Position numbers and translations under genes: made by a program
Source: Cytophagaceae bacterium
GTDB taxonomy: Bacteria > Bacteroidota > Bacteroidia > Cytophagales > Spirosomataceae
DNA length: 39,338 nt
Reading direction: 5' to 3'
NCBI GenBank assembly: GCA_024642485.1
Contig: JAHEAY010000009.1
Location: 1 to 39,338 of the forward strand
Part shown: positions 2,748 to 11,462 of the stretch, in pieces
Layout of the letters: every line of letters begins with the position of its first letter
How positions within the stretch are numbered: position 1 is the first letter of the stretch
Notes under the pieces: model-generated
The model's input: only the letters and a program-made list of their open reading frames with translations
Told to the model about the DNA's origin: nothing
Database searches by the model: none

Positions 2748-3461
2748 ATGAAGCGTCAAACATTTATTAAAAAAACGGGTTCAGTCCTCCTTGGGCCTTT
2801 TGTTGCCTTATCTTGTATAAAAAAAACGGATGATCAATCCGTCACACCTTCCACGGCCTCAACTTCAGGTACATGTAAAGTAGGCGATACTGAAACAGAT
2901 GGCCCTTATCCTTTGTATAATAAACGGGATGCCAGTATTACACATACGGATATTACTGAAGGAAAAACAGGTTTGCCTTTAAGCATGGCAATAACCATTC
3001 GAAACATAAATAATAACTGTGATGTGGTTCCTAACGCTCGAGTAGATGTTTGGCATTGTGATAAGGACGGCTATTATTCGGGTTATGTTAATCAAGGTTA
3101 TTTGGGAAATCAAGATAATACAGCCAAGACATTTTGTCGGGGAATTGCAACAGCCGACGCCTCCGGAGTTGCGCGTTTTCAAACGATATATCCGGGATGG
3201 TATCAAGGGCGAGTTACGCATATCCATGCCCAAATTTATGTGGGAGGCCAGTTGAAATTAACCACCCAAATCGCTTTTCCAGAAGATTTGAATACCGCAG
3301 TATACAATTCGGATTTGTACAAAGCGCATGGGCAAAACTCCACAAAGAATACAACGGATAGTATTATTCGTGATTCCTTGTCGAATGAACTAGCAACCGT
3401 AAATGCAAATCAGGTTTCAGGTGGTTATGATTTGATTCATACAATTAATATTGCCGTTTAA
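2748..3461 (+). CDS. Intradiol ring-cleavage dioxygenase-like lipoprotein
   Basis: A 237-residue protein related to the catalytic domain of protocatechuate 3,4-dioxygenase/catechol 1,2-dioxygenase. The N-terminus has basic residues, a hydrophobic stretch and a lipobox ending at Cys23 (VALSC), so the protein is probably a lipoprotein outside the cytoplasm. The fold is marked by TDGPYP (50-55), PNARVDVWHCDKDGYY (95-110) and YPGWYQGRVTHIH (148-160). Likely Fe(III) ligands are Tyr110, Tyr152, His158 and His160, with Arg155 as the family arginine. Family members open catechol-type rings with O2, but exported Bacteroidota versions have no firm substrate. It is a single gene, divergent from the SDR, with a TAnnTTTG-like box (2736-2743) immediately upstream. 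Confidence 0.85.
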   Translation: MKRQTFIKKTGSVLLGPFVALSCIKKTDDQSVTPSTASTSGTCKVGDTETDGPYPLYNKRDASITHTDITEGKTGLPLSMAITIRNINNNCDVVPNARVDVWHCDKDGYYSGYVNQGYLGNQDNTAKTFCRGIATADASGVARFQTIYPGWYQGRVTHIHAQIYVGGQLKLTTQIAFPEDLNTAVYNSDLYKAHGQNSTKNTTDSIIRDSLSNELATVNANQVSGGYDLIHTINIAV

Positions 3462-6423: not shown

Positions 6424-7047
6424 ATGAAGCAAGAAAAATACAGTCGCTACGAATTTTTGAAGAAAATGGGCTTTCAGGGCGGTGCTTTGATGGCCGTTTT
6501 GGCTTCATGTACCCAACAAGAAGATTCGGTTTTAGAATCTTTGATTGTCAATAAAAATGGAGAGACGGTTGCTGCGCTCGATAGCACAAAAAATAGTGCA
6601 GCTGTTAGTACACCAAGTACCTCTACGGGTGGGACAACAAGCGGCGGTACTACGACTGGAGGGACAACAACCGGAGGAAGTACATCTGCGACCACATTGC
6701 CAATTGGAAAAGTGACAACTGCCGAGTTAGCGAATGTGAAAAGTCCCTTGGTTAAATTGGATCTGACAATTTCGAGTTCATCAGCATTAGCGAGTACGGG
6801 TGGTTATATCACCGTAAACAATGCCATTGTTATCGGTCGGACTGCTTCGGGTGATTATGTAGCTGCGTCGAATTTGTGCACTCATGAGCCAAAACGCAGG
6901 GTGATTTTCAATAAAACGGAATATTTCTGTACAGACCATGGGGCGCGTTTTTCGTTGACAGGATCCAACTTAAATACTATTGCACGTTCACCACTTACTG
7001 TTTATAAAACTGCCAATGATGGGAAAACCCTAATTGTTTACGCCTAA
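6424..7047 (+). CDS. Rieske [2Fe-2S] lipoprotein with Gly/Thr linker
   Basis: A 207-residue protein. I chose the ATG at 6424 because it gives a clean export signal (MKQEKYSRYEFLKKMGFQGG) with lipobox LASC (Cys29); the frame can be extended upstream to 6247, but that stretch is repeat sequence. A low-complexity linker (69-87) carries four GGTT-type repeats. The C-terminal Rieske domain has C152-T-H154 and C169-T-D-H172, the 2Cys-2His ligand set, although the spacing is short as in ferredoxin-type Rieske proteins. It should carry electrons outside the cytoplasm. The thioredoxin-like gene follows after 4 nt, and then ApbE, so it is probably part of that redox system. Confidence 0.88.
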   Translation: MKQEKYSRYEFLKKMGFQGGALMAVLASCTQQEDSVLESLIVNKNGETVAALDSTKNSAAVSTPSTSTGGTTSGGTTTGGTTTGGSTSATTLPIGKVTTAELANVKSPLVKLDLTISSSSALASTGGYITVNNAIVIGRTASGDYVAASNLCTHEPKRRVIFNKTEYFCTDHGARFSLTGSNLNTIARSPLTVYKTANDGKTLIVYA

Positions 7048-7051
7048 TAAC

Positions 7052-7462
7052 ATGAATTTACTAACCATTGTATTGATAAGCCTTTTGTCTTGGATAGGAG
7101 ATTTCTCCCAAGCTCAAAAAGAAGCGCAAGCGAATAAGAAATTGATTTTGTTGAACTTTTCAGGTTCAGATTGGTGCGGACCCTGCATTAAATTGAAACA
7201 TGACGTGTTTGAAAGTGAGGCTTTTGGTCAATATGCCCAAGATAAATTAGTGTTAGTTCGGGCTGATTTTCCGCGTTTGAAAAAGAATCAATTACCTGTA
7301 GACCAACAAGCTCGCAATGATCAAATGGCGGAACGATACAACCCGAATGGGAAGTTTCCACTGACGGTTTTGATTAATAGCCAAGGCAAAGTCTTAAAAG
7401 AATGGGAAGGATATCAACCATCTGTCCAAAAATTCATTGCCGAAGTGGCAGCTTATCAATAA
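7052..7462 (+). CDS. Thioredoxin-like protein (WCGPC)
   Basis: A 136-residue thioredoxin-fold protein. The active site W41-C-G-P-C45 sits after a beta strand (KLILLNFSGSD), and KFPLTVLIN supplies the cis-proline loop. A hydrophobic N-terminus (MNLLTIVLISLLSWIG) suggests a signal peptide or membrane anchor, so it works outside the cytoplasm. I chose ATG 7052 over an upstream TTG at 7034 because the latter lies inside the Rieske gene and weakens the signal. It belongs to the thioredoxin_7/disulfide-reductase-like group. It is 4 nt from the Rieske gene and 4 nt from apbE, so a role in maintaining Cys residues of the partner proteins is likely but inferred. Confidence 0.88.
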   Translation: MNLLTIVLISLLSWIGDFSQAQKEAQANKKLILLNFSGSDWCGPCIKLKHDVFESEAFGQYAQDKLVLVRADFPRLKKNQLPVDQQARNDQMAERYNPNGKFPLTVLINSQGKVLKEWEGYQPSVQKFIAEVAAYQ

Positions 7463-7466
7463 TAAA

Positions 7467-8396
7467 ATGCCTTTATTTCAGCGGACTGATTTGTTGATGG
7501 GTAACCGATTCGACCTGGGTGTTGTCGCAGAAAATGCGGCGGAGGCGAAGGAAGGTCTCGCAGAAGCAGTGCTGGAAATTAAACGGATTGAAGGTTTATT
7601 AACGACATTCAATGAGTCAAGTCAGACATATCTTATTAATGAAAACGCAGGAATTTCTCCTGTGGAAGTGGATCAAGAAGTGTTTGATTTAATTACTCGC
7701 GCTCAAAAAATATCCCGCTTAACGCAAGGTGCTTTTGACTTAAGTTATGGGTCTTTGGATAAACGGTTTTGGAATTTTGACCAACAAATGACCGAATTGC
7801 CAAGTCGGAAAAAAATGGCAGAATCTGTCCGACTGATTGATTACCAAGCCATCGAACTAGATACAGAAAATCGGACGGTATTTTTACGAAATAAAGGCAT
7901 GCGCATCGGGTTTGGAGGGATAGGGAAAGGCTATGCTGCTGACCAAGCAAAAAAGCGACTGAAGCAGTTGGGCTTTCTACATGGAGTAGTGAATGCATCG
8001 GGTGATATGAGTGCCTGGGGGATGAATGAACAAGGAATGCCCTGGAAAGTGGCCATTGTTGATCCTGATAATTCTAACCAGACAGTCGCTGATTTTGATT
8101 TAACAAACGCGGCAGTGGCAACTTCAGGAAATTATGAGAAATTTGTCTTAATTGATGGAAAAAAATATTCCCATACGATTAATCCAAAGACAGGTTTTCC
8201 GATACAAGGGATTAAAAGTGTTTCTGTTTTTGCGCCCATGGCTGAATTAGCGGATGCATTGACAACACCGATTGCCGTGATGGGAGTGGAGGTTGGTCTC
8301 GATTTGGTCAACCAATTGAACGGAATATTCTGTGTGATTATTGATGACGATAATCGCGTTTATCAATCGAATAAAATAGTTGAAAGCTTAGTTTAG
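7467..8396 (+). CDS. apbE: FAD:protein FMN transferase (ApbE)
   Basis: A 309-residue ApbE-family protein. The conserved FAD/Mg site is visible as FGGIGKGYAAD (about 148-158), with VNASGDMSAWG after it, TSGNYEKF, and HTINPKTGFP. The C-terminal MAELADALTTPIAVMG matches the family A-x-x-A-D-A-x-(S/T)-T motif. ApbE transfers FMN from FAD onto a Thr or Ser of an extracytoplasmic protein. Unlike classical ApbE there is no lipoprotein signal with the ATG at 7467, nor with an upstream TTG at 7437, so secretion or a cytoplasmic site is unclear. The DUF4266 lipoprotein gene begins 4 nt after the stop, so that protein is the obvious candidate substrate. Confidence 0.92.
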   Translation: MPLFQRTDLLMGNRFDLGVVAENAAEAKEGLAEAVLEIKRIEGLLTTFNESSQTYLINENAGISPVEVDQEVFDLITRAQKISRLTQGAFDLSYGSLDKRFWNFDQQMTELPSRKKMAESVRLIDYQAIELDTENRTVFLRNKGMRIGFGGIGKGYAADQAKKRLKQLGFLHGVVNASGDMSAWGMNEQGMPWKVAIVDPDNSNQTVADFDLTNAAVATSGNYEKFVLIDGKKYSHTINPKTGFPIQGIKSVSVFAPMAELADALTTPIAVMGVEVGLDLVNQLNGIFCVIIDDDNRVYQSNKIVESLV

Positions 8397-8400
8397 CCCT

Positions 8401-8610
8401 ATGAAAAAAGTCATATTGTTTGTTGGTCTTTGTGCCACGCTGTCTTCTTGTACAGTCGTGAAGGAATACCAAAAGAGTCGCATTAACGATTCAGAAATGG
8501 AATTGTCTTCACGTAAAAGTGAAAAGTTTGAGCAGGCATTTTATTTATACCGCGAAGGTGCTTCAGGCGCAAACGGCGGGAAAAGCGGTGGAGGCTGCGG
8601 TTGTAACTAA
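8401..8610 (+). CDS. DUF4266-type small lipoprotein with Cys-rich tail
   Basis: A 69-residue protein with a lipoprotein signal (lipobox LSSC, Cys17). After a charged helix-like stretch (Lys21-Tyr50) it ends in REGASGANGGKSGGGCGCN: a Gly-rich tail with Cys66 and Cys68. This matches my recollection of the DUF4266 family, whose tails end in GGGGCGCN, and which is regularly next to ApbE and DUF3570. The segment E-G-A-S55-G-A-N resembles the (D/E)xx(S/T)GA(S/T) flavinylation sequence of ApbE substrates, with Asn replacing the usual last residue. It could be a flavin carrier or a metal/thiol-bearing tether in the periplasm. The function is unproven. Confidence 0.82.
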   Translation: MKKVILFVGLCATLSSCTVVKEYQKSRINDSEMELSSRKSEKFEQAFYLYREGASGANGGKSGGGCGCN

Positions 8611-8618
8611 GATAAGAT

Positions 8619-9860
8619 ATGAAAAAAATTGTCCTAGCAATCGGAATTTATTGTTCGCTTTTACATGGTTCAAAGGCTCAGCAGGTGGCTTATAGTCGGA
8701 GCCATGCGCAAGAATTTTTGAACGATTCAACGGAATACTCCAAACGCAAACTGAAGTTTGAGGAAGCAAACATCGTCACTGGTTATTATGATCAAGACGG
8801 GAATAATTCGGCCATTACAGGAGGTATAGGTACAGAGAAATTAACGGATTTAGCTAATTCTTTGGAGCTGCGTTTTTCCAAATTGGATCGCTACAATCGG
8901 ACGCATTCCTTTACCGCAGATTTTAATATTGATCAATATACCTCAGCATCTTCTGATAAAATTGACCCTTTAACTATTTCATCTGCTTCCCGTAAGGATA
9001 CACATATTTATCCGAGCATAGCGTGGTCAGTCAAAGATGATTTATTAGGAACCACACAAGGTTTGGCATATTCCTATTCAACCGAATACGACTATAAATC
9101 GCATGGATTTACAGCGAGTTATGCCAAATTGTCGAAAGACAAAAATACCGAATGGTCTTTCAAAGGTGGTGCGTTTTTGGATACGTATATGGCCATTTTG
9201 CCGTCGGAATTAAGGCCTGCGAACTATCCCTCGGGAGCGCATGGGGATCAAAAAGGTATTGATTACAAGCCAAGAAATTCATTTAATGCGTCTTTTGCTG
9301 TTTCTCAAGTCATCAATCAGCGTTTGCAGGTAATGGCGATGATTGAGCCTAGTTTTCAAGAGGGATTATTGAGTACGCCTTTTCATCGCGTATATTTCAC
9401 GAATGGGAATGAAACCGTTGAAAAGTTGCCTGGTACTCGTTTTAAATTGCCAGTAGGTTTCCGCCTAAGTTATTTCATGGGGGATAATACAATTATTCGG
9501 GCATTTTACCGGGCCTATATTGATAATTGGGGAATGGCGGCACATACGGCCAACTTAGAAGTACCCTATAAGATATCTCCTTTCTTCTCGATTAGTCCAT
9601 TCTATCGATTTAACATTCAAGGGAAAGTGGATTATTTCAAAGCTTACGGCCAGCATGCAACAACAGAATCTTTCTATACCTCTGATTATGACTTGTCGAG
9701 TTTCACAAGTCAATTCATGGGAGTAGGATTGCGTTTGTCCCCTCCGGGCGGGATCGCGAGTCTAGTCAATTGGAATTCCTTGGAAGTGCGTTATGGCTAT
9801 TATTCGCGTTCCAACGGAATGATCGGTCATAGTATCTCCATGAGTATTAAAATAAAATAG
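8619..9860 (+). CDS. DUF3570 outer-membrane beta-barrel-like protein
   Basis: A 413-residue protein with signal peptide (cut near SKAQ, residue 21). The body consists of alternating amphipathic strands rich in Tyr, Ser and Thr and ends in ISMSIKIK, consistent with an outer-membrane barrel, although the end is not the classic aromatic. The sequences LKFEEANIVTGYYDQDGNNSAITGGIGTE and SNSLELRFSKLDRYNRTHSFTAD match what I remember of the DUF3570 family. It follows the DUF4266 gene after 8 nt and is the last gene of the Rieske-Trx-ApbE group, with a short terminator overlapping its stop. No ligand or enzymatic role is known to me. Confidence 0.8.
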   Translation: MKKIVLAIGIYCSLLHGSKAQQVAYSRSHAQEFLNDSTEYSKRKLKFEEANIVTGYYDQDGNNSAITGGIGTEKLTDLANSLELRFSKLDRYNRTHSFTADFNIDQYTSASSDKIDPLTISSASRKDTHIYPSIAWSVKDDLLGTTQGLAYSYSTEYDYKSHGFTASYAKLSKDKNTEWSFKGGAFLDTYMAILPSELRPANYPSGAHGDQKGIDYKPRNSFNASFAVSQVINQRLQVMAMIEPSFQEGLLSTPFHRVYFTNGNETVEKLPGTRFKLPVGFRLSYFMGDNTIIRAFYRAYIDNWGMAAHTANLEVPYKISPFFSISPFYRFNIQGKVDYFKAYGQHATTESFYTSDYDLSSFTSQFMGVGLRLSPPGGIASLVNWNSLEVRYGYYSRSNGMIGHSISMSIKIK

Positions 9861-9918: not shown

Positions 9919-10254
9919 ATGGGAATTACCAAAACCGATTTGTTTACTGAAGAGCAAAATGCGATCGCGCAAATGGCAAAAGTGTTGGGTCATCCCGCTC
10001 GAGTGGCCATTTTGCAGTATTTGGTGAAATCGAAAACGTGCATCAATGGAGATTTGATTTCGGAATTGGGATTAGCCCAAGCAACAGTTTCTCAGCACCT
10101 TCGGGAATTGAAGGAAATCGGTTTTATTCAAGGAACCATTGAAGGGGTTTCTGTTTGTTATTGCATTAATCCGGATAAATGGGCTGAGTTTAGTCAATTG
10201 TTCGGGTCGTTTTTTGAAAATTATTTTGTTTCTCAACAATCTAACTGCTGTTAA
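9919..10254 (+). CDS. arsR: ArsR-family metalloregulator
   Basis: A 111-residue winged-helix repressor of the ArsR/SmtB family. The helix-turn-helix is at about residues 44-68, with LAQATVSQHLRELKEIGFI as the recognition region, and AKVLGHPARVAIL (20-32) is the family start helix. It lacks the ELCVCDL arsenic site; instead Cys41, Cys80/Cys82 and a terminal Cys110-Cys111 pair are present and may form the As(III) site. It should repress its own operon until arsenite binds. A dyad lies just upstream. The next gene, arsI, starts 2 nt after the stop. Confidence 0.93.
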   Translation: MGITKTDLFTEEQNAIAQMAKVLGHPARVAILQYLVKSKTCINGDLISELGLAQATVSQHLRELKEIGFIQGTIEGVSVCYCINPDKWAEFSQLFGSFFENYFVSQQSNCC

Positions 10255-10256
10255 TT

Positions 10257-10763
10257 ATGAGCTTTCCGCGTATGCACGTATCACTTTATGTCAGCAATTT
10301 GGCGGCATCAGTGAATTTTTATTCCACATTTTTTGGTCAGCCGGCTACGAAGATCAAGCCGGGTTATGCTAAATATGTATTGGATTCTCCATCGTTAATC
10401 ATTTCGTTTATCGAAAATCCTGAGCGCGTTCAAGCCAATTTTGGTCACTTAGGTTTTCAAGTGGAAACGGTGGAGGAGATGACGAATCGGCTTGTGCAGG
10501 CGAGAGCCCAAGGGATAGTTTCCAAAGAAGAAATCGGAACTTCTTGTTGTTATGCCGTTCAAGATAAATTTTGGGCGACAGATCCAGACGGAGTTCAGTG
10601 GGAAGTCTATTATTTCCATGAGGATGCGGAATTTAATGATCCGCATTATGCAGCGCAGGAAGCATCTGCTTGTTGCATGCCACCCGTAGCCGAAAAACCC
10701 AAACTTAAAATTGCCGAAATTCAATCCGCTAATTCATGTGCCCCGGGTTCGGGATGTTGCTAG
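10257..10763 (+). CDS. arsI: ArsI/CadI-type organoarsenical C-As lyase
   Basis: A 168-residue vicinal-oxygen-chelate (glyoxalase-fold) protein. Probable Fe(II) ligands His7, His64 and Glu116 match the His/His/Glu set of ArsI, and Cys97-Cys98 (TSCCYA) is the substrate-binding vicinal pair. DKFWATDPDGVQWEVYYF is highly typical of the ArsI/CadI family. ArsI splits the carbon-arsenic bond of trivalent organoarsenicals such as MAs(III) with O2. The C-terminal tail adds Cys139-Cys140, Cys161 and a final Cys167-Cys168, likely metal-binding. It directly follows arsR, so it is induced by arsenic. Family members are sometimes annotated as cadmium-induced CadI. Confidence 0.92.
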   Translation: MSFPRMHVSLYVSNLAASVNFYSTFFGQPATKIKPGYAKYVLDSPSLIISFIENPERVQANFGHLGFQVETVEEMTNRLVQARAQGIVSKEEIGTSCCYAVQDKFWATDPDGVQWEVYYFHEDAEFNDPHYAAQEASACCMPPVAEKPKLKIAEIQSANSCAPGSGCC

Positions 10764-10805
10764 GAATTATCAGTTTTTGAATCTTTTATATCGTCATAAA
10801 CCCTT

Positions 10806-10838
10806 AGCTTTGGCAAACCTCAAAGGATTGCCAAAGCT
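10806..10838. repeat. REP-like 33-nt hairpin, copy B
   Basis: AGCTTTGGCAA pairs with TTGCCAAAGCT (11 bp), around an A-A mismatch, CCT/AGG and loop CAA. It lies between arsI and the arsC-like gene. No T-tract follows, so it need not stop transcription; it may protect mRNA ends or modulate translation. Confidence 0.85.
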
Positions 10839-10862
10839 GAAGCAAGAAGCCATTCCATTCGT

Positions 10863-11462
10863 ATGAACAATACCCTGAACGAAAACCTTGAATCTATTTT
10901 AGCGCTTGAAATTTCTGATGAACGTAAATCTGTTCTTCAGCCTTTGATCGTATACATCAAGTCTAAACGCGAAAAGGAACAACCCATTCTACTGAATTTC
11001 ATTTGTACGCACAATTCGCGCCGTTCGCAATTCGCGCAAATTTGGGCCCAAACAGCCGCAGATTATTTTCAGTTGGCCGCCCAATGTTATTCTGGTGGGG
11101 TAGAAGTGACAGCTTGCAATGAGCGAACTGTCGCGTCCTTAGAACGCATGGGTTTCATCGTATCTAAACATGGTCATTCGAATCCCATATATTTTGTCTT
11201 ACATACCGAGGACTCTCGTCCCATCATCGCATTTTCAAAACTATATGACGATGTTATCAATCCTCACCGCATCTTTGCTACGGTGATGACATGTTCGCAT
11301 GCGGATGAGAATTGCCCATTTATCCCAGGTGCCGAGGTACGCATTCCGGTGCGTTACGAAGATCCTAAAGCCTTTGATGACACGGATTTAGAAGCAGCGA
11401 TGTACGATAAACGCTCTCGCCAAATTGCGAGTGAAATGTTCTATGTGTTTTCTCGCGTCTAG
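10863..11462 (+). CDS. arsC: Arsenate reductase-like low-MW protein tyrosine phosphatase
   Basis: A 199-residue protein of the low-molecular-weight PTP/ArsC fold. The P-loop is C48-T-H-N-S-R-R54-S (CX5R). A second motif TCSHADENCPFIPG (about 142-155) contributes two Cys residues, as in thioredoxin-coupled arsenate reductases and in Bacteroidota LMW phosphatases. It should reduce As(V) to As(III), or dephosphorylate protein tyrosine, in the cytoplasm. The repeated hairpin separates it from arsI by 99 nt, but the strand and theme point to one arsenic locus. Its TAG stop shares the palindrome CTAG with the stop of the convergent DUF4440 gene. Arsenate reductase is the preferred call from context. 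Confidence 0.83.
   Translation: MNNTLNENLESILALEISDERKSVLQPLIVYIKSKREKEQPILLNFICTHNSRRSQFAQIWAQTAADYFQLAAQCYSGGVEVTACNERTVASLERMGFIVSKHGHSNPIYFVLHTEDSRPIIAFSKLYDDVINPHRIFATVMTCSHADENCPFIPGAEVRIPVRYEDPKAFDDTDLEAAMYDKRSRQIASEMFYVFSRV

Follow-up and report, generated by a model that had tools for sequence, protein, structure and literature searches.

We have analyzed a stretch of 39,338 nucleotides (contig JAHEAY010000009.1, here called the window), which is the entire contig C7 of a genome of 2.5 Mb, 89% complete, from a freshwater bacterium of the Bacteroidota. Positions 6424 to 9860 carry five genes, all on the plus strand, coding for a Rieske [2Fe-2S] lipoprotein, a thioredoxin-like protein, an ApbE FAD:protein FMN transferase, a DUF4266 lipoprotein and a DUF3570 protein predicted to be an outer-membrane barrel. 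We interpret them as the DUF3570 flavinylation system (Méheust et al., 2021; PMC8238504) in a variant form that includes a Rieske protein, with a proposed route for electrons that would run from thiols through barrel-bound flavins to the Rieske protein, and we give this reading a probability of roughly 55%. The core of four genes is already known; what is novel is the Rieske member, the ApbE devoid of a recognizable signal peptide and the place where the FMN sites are predicted to lie. The closest named relatives are Aquirufa (the DUF3570 protein of A. rosea CAR-16 is a 75% match) and the nearest rows of the tree agree, so that the genus of the window (g1) would be Aquirufa or one near it.

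A fixed Rieske gene in the operon

The genes follow each other with gaps of 4, 4, 4 and 8 nt and all five proteins score above the cut-offs of their Pfam families. Coordinates and Pfam matches thus agree with an earlier interpretation of this DNA made from the sequence alone (the sequence-only reading), which had described five adjacent genes with gaps of 4–8 nt. An M20 peptidase gene lies 223 nt before the Rieske gene, and an ArsR-type regulator gene starts 58 nt 3' of the DUF3570 gene. A scan for promoters and terminators gave no excess over shuffled sequences.

We have compared this arrangement over the family of the window (f1, a GTDB-type family that includes Spirosoma, Runella, Dyadobacter and Emticicia; in what follows L denotes a locus, G a genome, g a genus group and f a family group). 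The profile PF14086 (DUF4266) matched 94 of 222 family genomes, with 102 matches, and 101 loci were retained (100 fetched plus the window, a partial match of 35.7 bits in G164 being omitted). A Rieske homologue was present in 86 of the 101 loci, and in 85 it was found on the same strand within 4.5 kb; the operon Rieske is, in those 85 loci, the gene of the cluster family located next before the thioredoxin gene. Since this order recurs across the family, it is more than chance. Five loci of g11 (L033, L034, L053, L054 and L061) and L094 have a tandem pair of Rieske genes before the thioredoxin gene, the first of the two being broken in L053. The 16 exceptions are L092, where the Rieske gene precedes the thioredoxin gene by 2.6 kb; L107, where it is absent from a cluster of unchanged type; L110 and L111, located at contig edges in genomes (G042 and G043) that carry a Rieske gene on another contig; and the 12 loci L121–L132, a separate Rieske-less type of DUF4266/DUF3570/ApbE cluster found mostly in Dyadobacter (g7). 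The sequences of this second type differ as well, with mostly MGSAFE in ApbE and with VKPYQ and mostly REGATP or REGDTP in DUF4266 (L122 and L128 are odd members), and seven genomes have two clusters, one of each type.

The same association was found at the level of genomes. Matches to the operon Rieske of at least 150 bits, a line that was set after the list had been seen, were present in 85 of the 94 family genomes with DUF4266 and in none of the 128 without it. Most of these 85 matches cover positions 1–176 of the model, and four are partial (G042, G101, G143 and G213). Five of the nine DUF4266-bearing genomes below the line have the Rieske-less type only (G057, G067, G090, G092 and G096), G087 is the genome of L107, and G130, G173 and G217 have an operon Rieske that is split, short or scores slightly below the line. 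Within the genus of the window DUF4266 was found in 9 of 38 genomes, and Rieske in the same 9. A Fisher p value for the co-occurrence ignores phylogeny and was not used as a probability. Given the conservation of the locus and the co-occurrence in genomes, we have rejected a chance neighborhood of the Rieske gene; the composition of the operon and its conservation in the family are well supported. Rieske and thioredoxin genes are conserved neighbors in the relatives, so that the first condition named by the sequence-only reading as one that would refute it does not hold.

The Rieske protein and its anchor

The Rieske gene (6424..7047, plus strand) codes for 207 amino acids (PF00355, 24.3 bits over a cut-off of 20.3). 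The protein starts with a Tat-like signal with a single Arg (SRYEFLK) and a lipobox LASC (Cys29) followed by TQQED; a TatC was found in the same genome. A disordered Thr/Gly/Ser linker (residues ca. 31–90) leads to the Rieske domain (ca. 95–207), whose ligands C152-x-H154 and C169-x-x-H172 are invariant in 41 of 41 alignment rows. In the AlphaFold2 (AF2) model the mean confidence of 10-residue blocks was between 88 and 96 from residue 91 on, except for 76 at residues 151–160, where the first ligands are located, while the linker of about 50–60 residues had low confidence and is presumably disordered. Foldseek aligned it with ferredoxins and with Rieske proteins, at a best E of 2.5e-4. The protein has therefore the ligands and the predicted fold of PF00355, and binding of a [2Fe-2S] cluster is predicted. 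Both features are those of Rieske ferredoxins and soluble Rieske domains such as BphA3 (2e4q), the toluene dioxygenase ferredoxin (3dqy) and a Chlorobaculum protein (8hn2), from which the window protein differs in being a lipoprotein with a long flexible linker and in being encoded inside a flavinylation operon. No extra Cys appears at the two places tested in 93 of 93 cluster Rieske proteins (L133, the 94th, lacks the motif), and 90 of the 93 have HGA instead of HGS. Absence of the extra Cys and HGA are signs of a low-potential Rieske cluster. Three of the five proteins (Rieske, DUF4266 and DUF3570) were assigned to no family by NCBIfam.

The residues after the lipidated Cys are mostly C-[VIT]-[RKH]-E-E-D in the cluster Rieske proteins, with acids mainly at +4/+5/+6. 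Two or more acids at +2 to +7 were found in 73 of 83 of them (2 of 85 rows were dropped as the lipobox was not located) versus 0 of 101 DUF4266 proteins. In seven family genomes the same was true of 24 of 27 SusD surface lipoproteins (from the loci of 30 best matches, a part of all SusD, after dropping three with no lipobox call) and of 0 of 7 BamD. The surface-export signal (LES) of Capnocytophaga is C-X-K-(D/E)2-X (PMC5080379), a rule derived outside this family that the family Rieske consensus fits and of which the anchor of the window protein is a shifted form. The acid-rich anchor, found in Rieske and not in DUF4266, makes a surface location plausible for the former and a periplasmic one for the latter.

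The DUF3570 barrel and its candidate FMN sites

The last gene of the operon (8619..9860, plus strand) codes for a DUF3570 protein of 413 amino acids (PF12094, 95.6 bits, 3.8e-27), a predicted outer-membrane barrel and predicted FMN acceptor. AF2 models it as a barrel with some 16 strands (mean pLDDT 89.9, pTM 0.81) preceded by a hydrophobic N-terminal helix (residues 2–19). Foldseek and VIA-align retrieved outer-membrane barrels in general (OpdK with E 2.7e-9 and TM 0.39–0.43, OmpG with Z ca. 17, the BamA barrel with Z 21.5). A signal peptide, an even number of strands and both termini on the same side are all predicted, as expected of an outer-membrane beta-barrel. By strand count, the loops 61–74, 109–125, 192–215, 250–272 and 335–361 are located on one side, and the opposite side has mostly short turns and both termini.

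Two candidate flavinylation motifs, both conserved in relatives, were found in this protein: TSAS at residues 108–111 (8940..8951, plus strand), with D at −3 (DQYTSAS), and SSAS at residues 121–124 (8979..8990, plus strand). They are at or in loop 109–125, so that by the usual rule they would be on the outer side. All 98 family DUF3570 proteins of at least 350 amino acids have exactly two copies of [ST][GS]A[ST], and one or both of these show an acid at −3. In f18 the motifs have Gly in 16 of 16 copies, and no such motif was found in 4 of 4 f3 proteins and one from f5. The f3 proteins (L133–L136) carry ASAS and S[ST]PS at these places; the only Rieske homologue of the f3 loci, that of L133, has lost the ligand cysteines, and these loci possibly represent a decaying or changed version.

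An ApbE with no recognizable signal peptide

The ApbE gene (7467..8396, plus strand) codes for 309 amino acids (PF02424, 255 bits, 9.9e-76). Its N-terminus, MPLFQRTDLLMGNRF, has no recognizable signal peptide and no hydrophobic stretch. A signal was called by a mean hydropathy of at least 2.0 over 9 residues within the 45 before the first domain motif, together with a reading of the N-terminus. By this measure 93 of 100 family ApbE proteins lack a signal, five are borderline (2.0–2.2) and two lack the motif; the borderline ones are TTG-started extensions with a nearer ATG. The signal is also absent in 6 of 6 f4, 2 of 2 f6, 1 of 1 f11, 8 of 8 f18 and 7 of 7 f5 proteins (one of the f5 proteins being, however, the signal-bearing fusion at L162, see below), and the two from f35, at 1.8 and 2.0, are at the line. 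The sequence-only reading had proposed a candidate extracytoplasmic flavin/electron-transfer system, with electron or thiol delivery to the outer membrane as a hypothesis. The part that concerns the system, Rieske included, is supported by these data, but its ApbE is probably not extracytoplasmic. In L049, L057 and L059 a second, longer gene of the ApbE family (about 504–512 aa) lies a few kb from the operon.

An ApbE in the cytosol would have to modify DUF3570 before its export. No intracellular enzyme reaches an outer loop once the barrel is assembled, and for this reason ApbE should act on unfolded DUF3570. Sec may pass an FMN adduct, and we know of no earlier example in which an outer-membrane barrel receives a covalent redox cofactor while still in the cytosol. 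The combination of a signal-less ApbE with an outer-membrane substrate whose motifs are predicted to point away from the periplasm sharpens the problem of where the barrel is flavinylated. DUF3570 produced together with ApbE in Escherichia coli was flavinylated and mostly in the pellet, from a construct cloned like the signal-truncated pair of the same paper (PMC8238504), a result that fits the action of ApbE on the unfolded chain. Klebsiella pneumoniae has a cytosolic ApbE without signal peptide, as in the window, although its substrate is a soluble fumarate reductase (PMC12052999) and not a predicted exported barrel.

Thiol partners and recurrent neighbors

The thioredoxin-like protein (136 aa, 7052..7462, plus strand; PF13899 Thioredoxin_7, 47.7 bits, 1.7e-12) has an N-terminal hydrophobic signal (by eye), a WCGPC motif coded at 7172–7186 and a partial match, below cut-off, to the thioredoxin domains of DsbH/DsbD. 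The DUF4266 lipoprotein (69 aa, 8401..8610, plus strand; PF14086, 71.3 bits, 1.3e-19) ends in GCGCN, with the codons of the CXC at 8596–8604. This tail is shared by 155 of 161 DUF4266 homologues, the others having GCGCG (4) or CGCAK (2). The sequence-only reading had taken DUF4266 for the likely flavinylated protein. We have discarded it as the flavin carrier, given that the published substrate is DUF3570 (PMC8238504) and that 158 of the 161 homologues lack [S/T]GA[S/T], the motif being found in only three (PSGAS, in g9 homologues).

We have found DsbD genes beside the cluster in several relatives. In the Emticicia locus L083 a DsbD gene (DsbD_TM plus Thioredoxin_7, 456 aa) is located directly upstream of the Rieske gene, at 144 nt, so that here Rieske is joined to the published DsbD version. 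Five further g8 loci have DsbD homologues in the same place (six in total, by BLAST grouping), L047 (Flectobacillus-like) has one downstream, and the f18 gene order is Trx-DUF4266-DUF3570-ApbE-DsbD. Among other genes considered as conserved partners, response regulators, CzcA/CusB-type RND, VIT1, TonB-like and YceI genes are repeatedly found in certain genera, and none is universal. A VIT1-type transporter was found in 16 of 161 loci, 5 with Rieske and 11 without it or with it far away, and a CzcA-type RND in 21 of 161; VIT1 near such clusters was noted also in PMC8238504. Besides the thioredoxin, only a short-chain dehydrogenase among the genes flanking in the window belongs to the 30 top neighbor groups, and no oxygenase-like gene was seen, by eye, in these 30.

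Distribution outside the family

DUF4266 was found in 113 of 395 genomes of a phylum sample, from which we took 60 loci (the 52 matches that belong neither to the family nor to f18, plus eight from 8 of the 62 f18 genomes). A Rieske gene before the thioredoxin gene was present in 9 of the 60: 5 of 6 in f4, 3 of 25 in f7 and 1 of 4 in f3. The f18 loci have none (0 of 8); two weak matches, of CTHLGC type, are 6 kb off. Among loci from named organisms (the best 80 of 561 confirmed, overlapping with those of the family and the phylum sample) Rieske was found in 40, in 39 of them close upstream, and the bearers include Runella, Spirosoma, Emticicia, Dyadobacter, Mucilaginibacter, Pedobacter, Chitinophaga polysaccharea and a Ferruginibacter. 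In an unrooted tree of ApbE plus DUF3570 with 145 rows, 65 of the 68 rows with Rieske fall in one group of 73 (SH-aLRT 95) that unites the family with Sphingobacteriaceae, and at least 11 changes of the Rieske state are needed over the whole tree. The simplest reading is an early gain followed by later losses, which a count on an unrooted tree does not prove. In the tree of the Rieske proteins (few columns, unrooted) the operon Rieske of the family is separate from that of Sphingobacteriaceae.

Comparison with the published system

Méheust et al. (2021; PMC8238504) described clusters that combine ApbE, DUF3570 and DUF4266 with a thioredoxin of PF13899, with a count of 285 flavinylation clusters that have DsbD and 316 four-gene clusters without it. 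This is in agreement with the sequence-only reading, which had described ApbE, DUF4266 and DUF3570 as a grouping known from other genomes and of open biochemical role, the function being called uncertain in that paper too; a fixed Rieske partner would provide this system with a one-electron outlet. They also showed that the DUF3570 protein of C. luteolum (Chlorobium luteolum) is flavinylated by its own ApbE at two [S/T]GA[S/T] sites. The window resembles this system in having the four genes together, a CXC C-terminus on DUF4266 and two ApbE-type motifs on DUF3570, with DsbD adjoining the cluster in some relatives. It differs in the additional Rieske gene, in having its DsbD off the contig (so that it is not a DsbD system in the published sense), in having TSAS and SSAS in place of SGAS, which falls outside [S/T]GA[S/T], and in an ApbE without the recognizable signal peptide that marks the extracytosolic ones. 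The first screen of that study discarded genes with no signal peptide or lipid site, and its main text has no occurrence of the word Rieske. In the open-licence literature we found no other paper on DUF4266 or DUF3570, none that combines Rieske with ApbE and flavinylation, and, judging by titles and the beginning of abstracts, nothing relevant to flavin, Bacteroidetes, extracellular electron transfer and Rieske together.

Proposed electron route and alternative explanations

We propose that the signal-less ApbE would place two FMN on DUF3570 while the precursor is still in the cytosol, and that DUF3570 would then be exported and assemble in the outer membrane, its FMN loop either within the lumen or facing outwards. 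Thioredoxin, once exported, would be re-reduced by DsbD and could pass thiol electrons to FMN, and so could the periplasmic DUF4266 through its CXC tail, which perhaps acts as a relay. At the FMN the two-electron thiol step would be divided into single-electron steps, and the electrons would be handed to the long-tethered Rieske protein. The latter is predicted to face the surface and would in turn reduce an acceptor located at the outer membrane or beyond it. Our favored guess for this acceptor is ferric iron or some other metal; the sole ground for iron is that VIT1-type transporters, together with metal RND pumps, are repeatedly found in the vicinity of clusters of this kind. In its most specific form, i.e., a haem-free conduit with cytosolic FMN loading of the unfolded barrel, flavins on the outer side and a surface Rieske as terminal one-electron carrier, the proposal is tentative and less likely than not to be right. 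Porin-cytochrome conduits such as MtrCAB provide a redox path at or across the outer membrane by means of a barrel and a surface lipoprotein. If the specific form were true, the operon would be their flavin/iron-sulfur counterpart, alike in proposed role but with no haem, with FMN on the barrel and a Rieske cluster instead; no homology is claimed. A Rieske protein on the surface would mean a cytochrome-free outer-membrane electron path in many Spirosomaceae and Sphingobacteriaceae.

Several observations weigh against this interpretation. The contig of the window has no DsbD, and the only DsbD (DsbD_TM) match of the genome is on contig C229 of G000, 2 kb from TatC (stretch 40023–43381). The family motifs have Ser for Gly in 184 of 196 copies, and the two of the window are of this kind, with the acceptor Ser kept; in another substrate a change of G to A cut flavinylation to about half (PMC12052999). 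Two loops of the supposed outer side are short (157–158 and 303–306), so the side rule is imperfect for this barrel, and residues 118–124 of the motif loop have pLDDT below 50, which would leave room for flavins directed inwards, to the lumen. The anchor of the window protein, CTQQEDS, is shifted from the known LES. Signal-like N-termini were found in ApbE from 13 of 25 f7 loci (12 have none), 3 of 4 f3 and 2 of 2 f16; since some relatives have a signal-bearing ApbE, the site of modification seems to depend on the lineage. In L162 (f5, G472) a signal-bearing fusion of thioredoxin and ApbE in a single frame stands beside DUF4266 and DUF3570. As for the Rieske gene itself, the best of the genomes devoid of DUF4266 (G102) reaches 144.4 bits against the line drawn afterwards, over model positions 70–176, i.e., the domain only; Rieske matches at the level of the domain are present in 219 of 222 family genomes, and related clusters without Rieske make up 51 of the 60 phylum-sample loci and 40 of the 80 named ones.

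Part of these data would also be explained if all the redox partners faced the periplasm, with Rieske and DUF4266 linking DsbD and thioredoxin to the periplasmic mouth of the barrel, the FMN loop in the lumen and a function in periplasmic repair or metal reduction. The N-termini of thioredoxin and DUF4266 do look periplasmic, the position of the FMN loop is of low confidence and the LES consensus is putative in this family, where the acids of SusD are mainly at +3/+4 and those of Rieske at +4/+5/+6. We consider this arrangement less likely, given that the acid-rich anchor is present on Rieske and not on DUF4266 or BamD, and that the motifs are located on the side opposite to the barrel termini. 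The flow could also be reversed: an external donor would feed electrons to Rieske, and these would pass by way of FMN to DUF4266 and thioredoxin, in an oxidizing system (disulfide or metal oxidation). Neither sequence nor gene order fixes the direction, and reversal is allowed in principle by PMC8238504, but the DsbD-family neighbors in Emticicia, Flectobacillus and f18 would supply reductant. Besides, the Rieske proteins lack the features generally linked to a high potential (no extra Cys in 93 of 93, HGA in 90 of 93), and we find a reversed flow improbable.

Finally, Rieske might be a co-regulated passenger that shares only the promoter, e.g., a protein that works with an oxygenase or with some different redox enzyme. 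Clusters without it do exist, including L107, of the same type, and several in Pedobacter, and the state changes on the tree are many (at least 11). Against this, the co-occurrence is of 85 in 94 versus 0 in 128 genomes, the position before thioredoxin is fixed in two families and oxygenase-like genes are not seen among the 30 most recurrent neighbor groups, all of which makes a passenger improbable. The Rieske-containing flavinylation system, with electrons moving outwards from thiols, is the reading that we prefer.

Other genes in the window

Directly downstream of the operon (9919–11462) there are genes for the ArsR-type regulator, a glyoxalase-family protein with a cysteine-rich tail (ArsI/CadI-like by eye) and a protein with an LMWPc match, weak at 19.9 bits and below cut-off (arsenate-reductase-like by eye). 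This is likely an arsenic cluster, apparently unrelated to the operon. At 2748–3461 we found a lipoprotein of the intradiol-dioxygenase family with a single-Arg Tat-like signal (MKRQTFIKK), of a kind similar to that of the Rieske protein.

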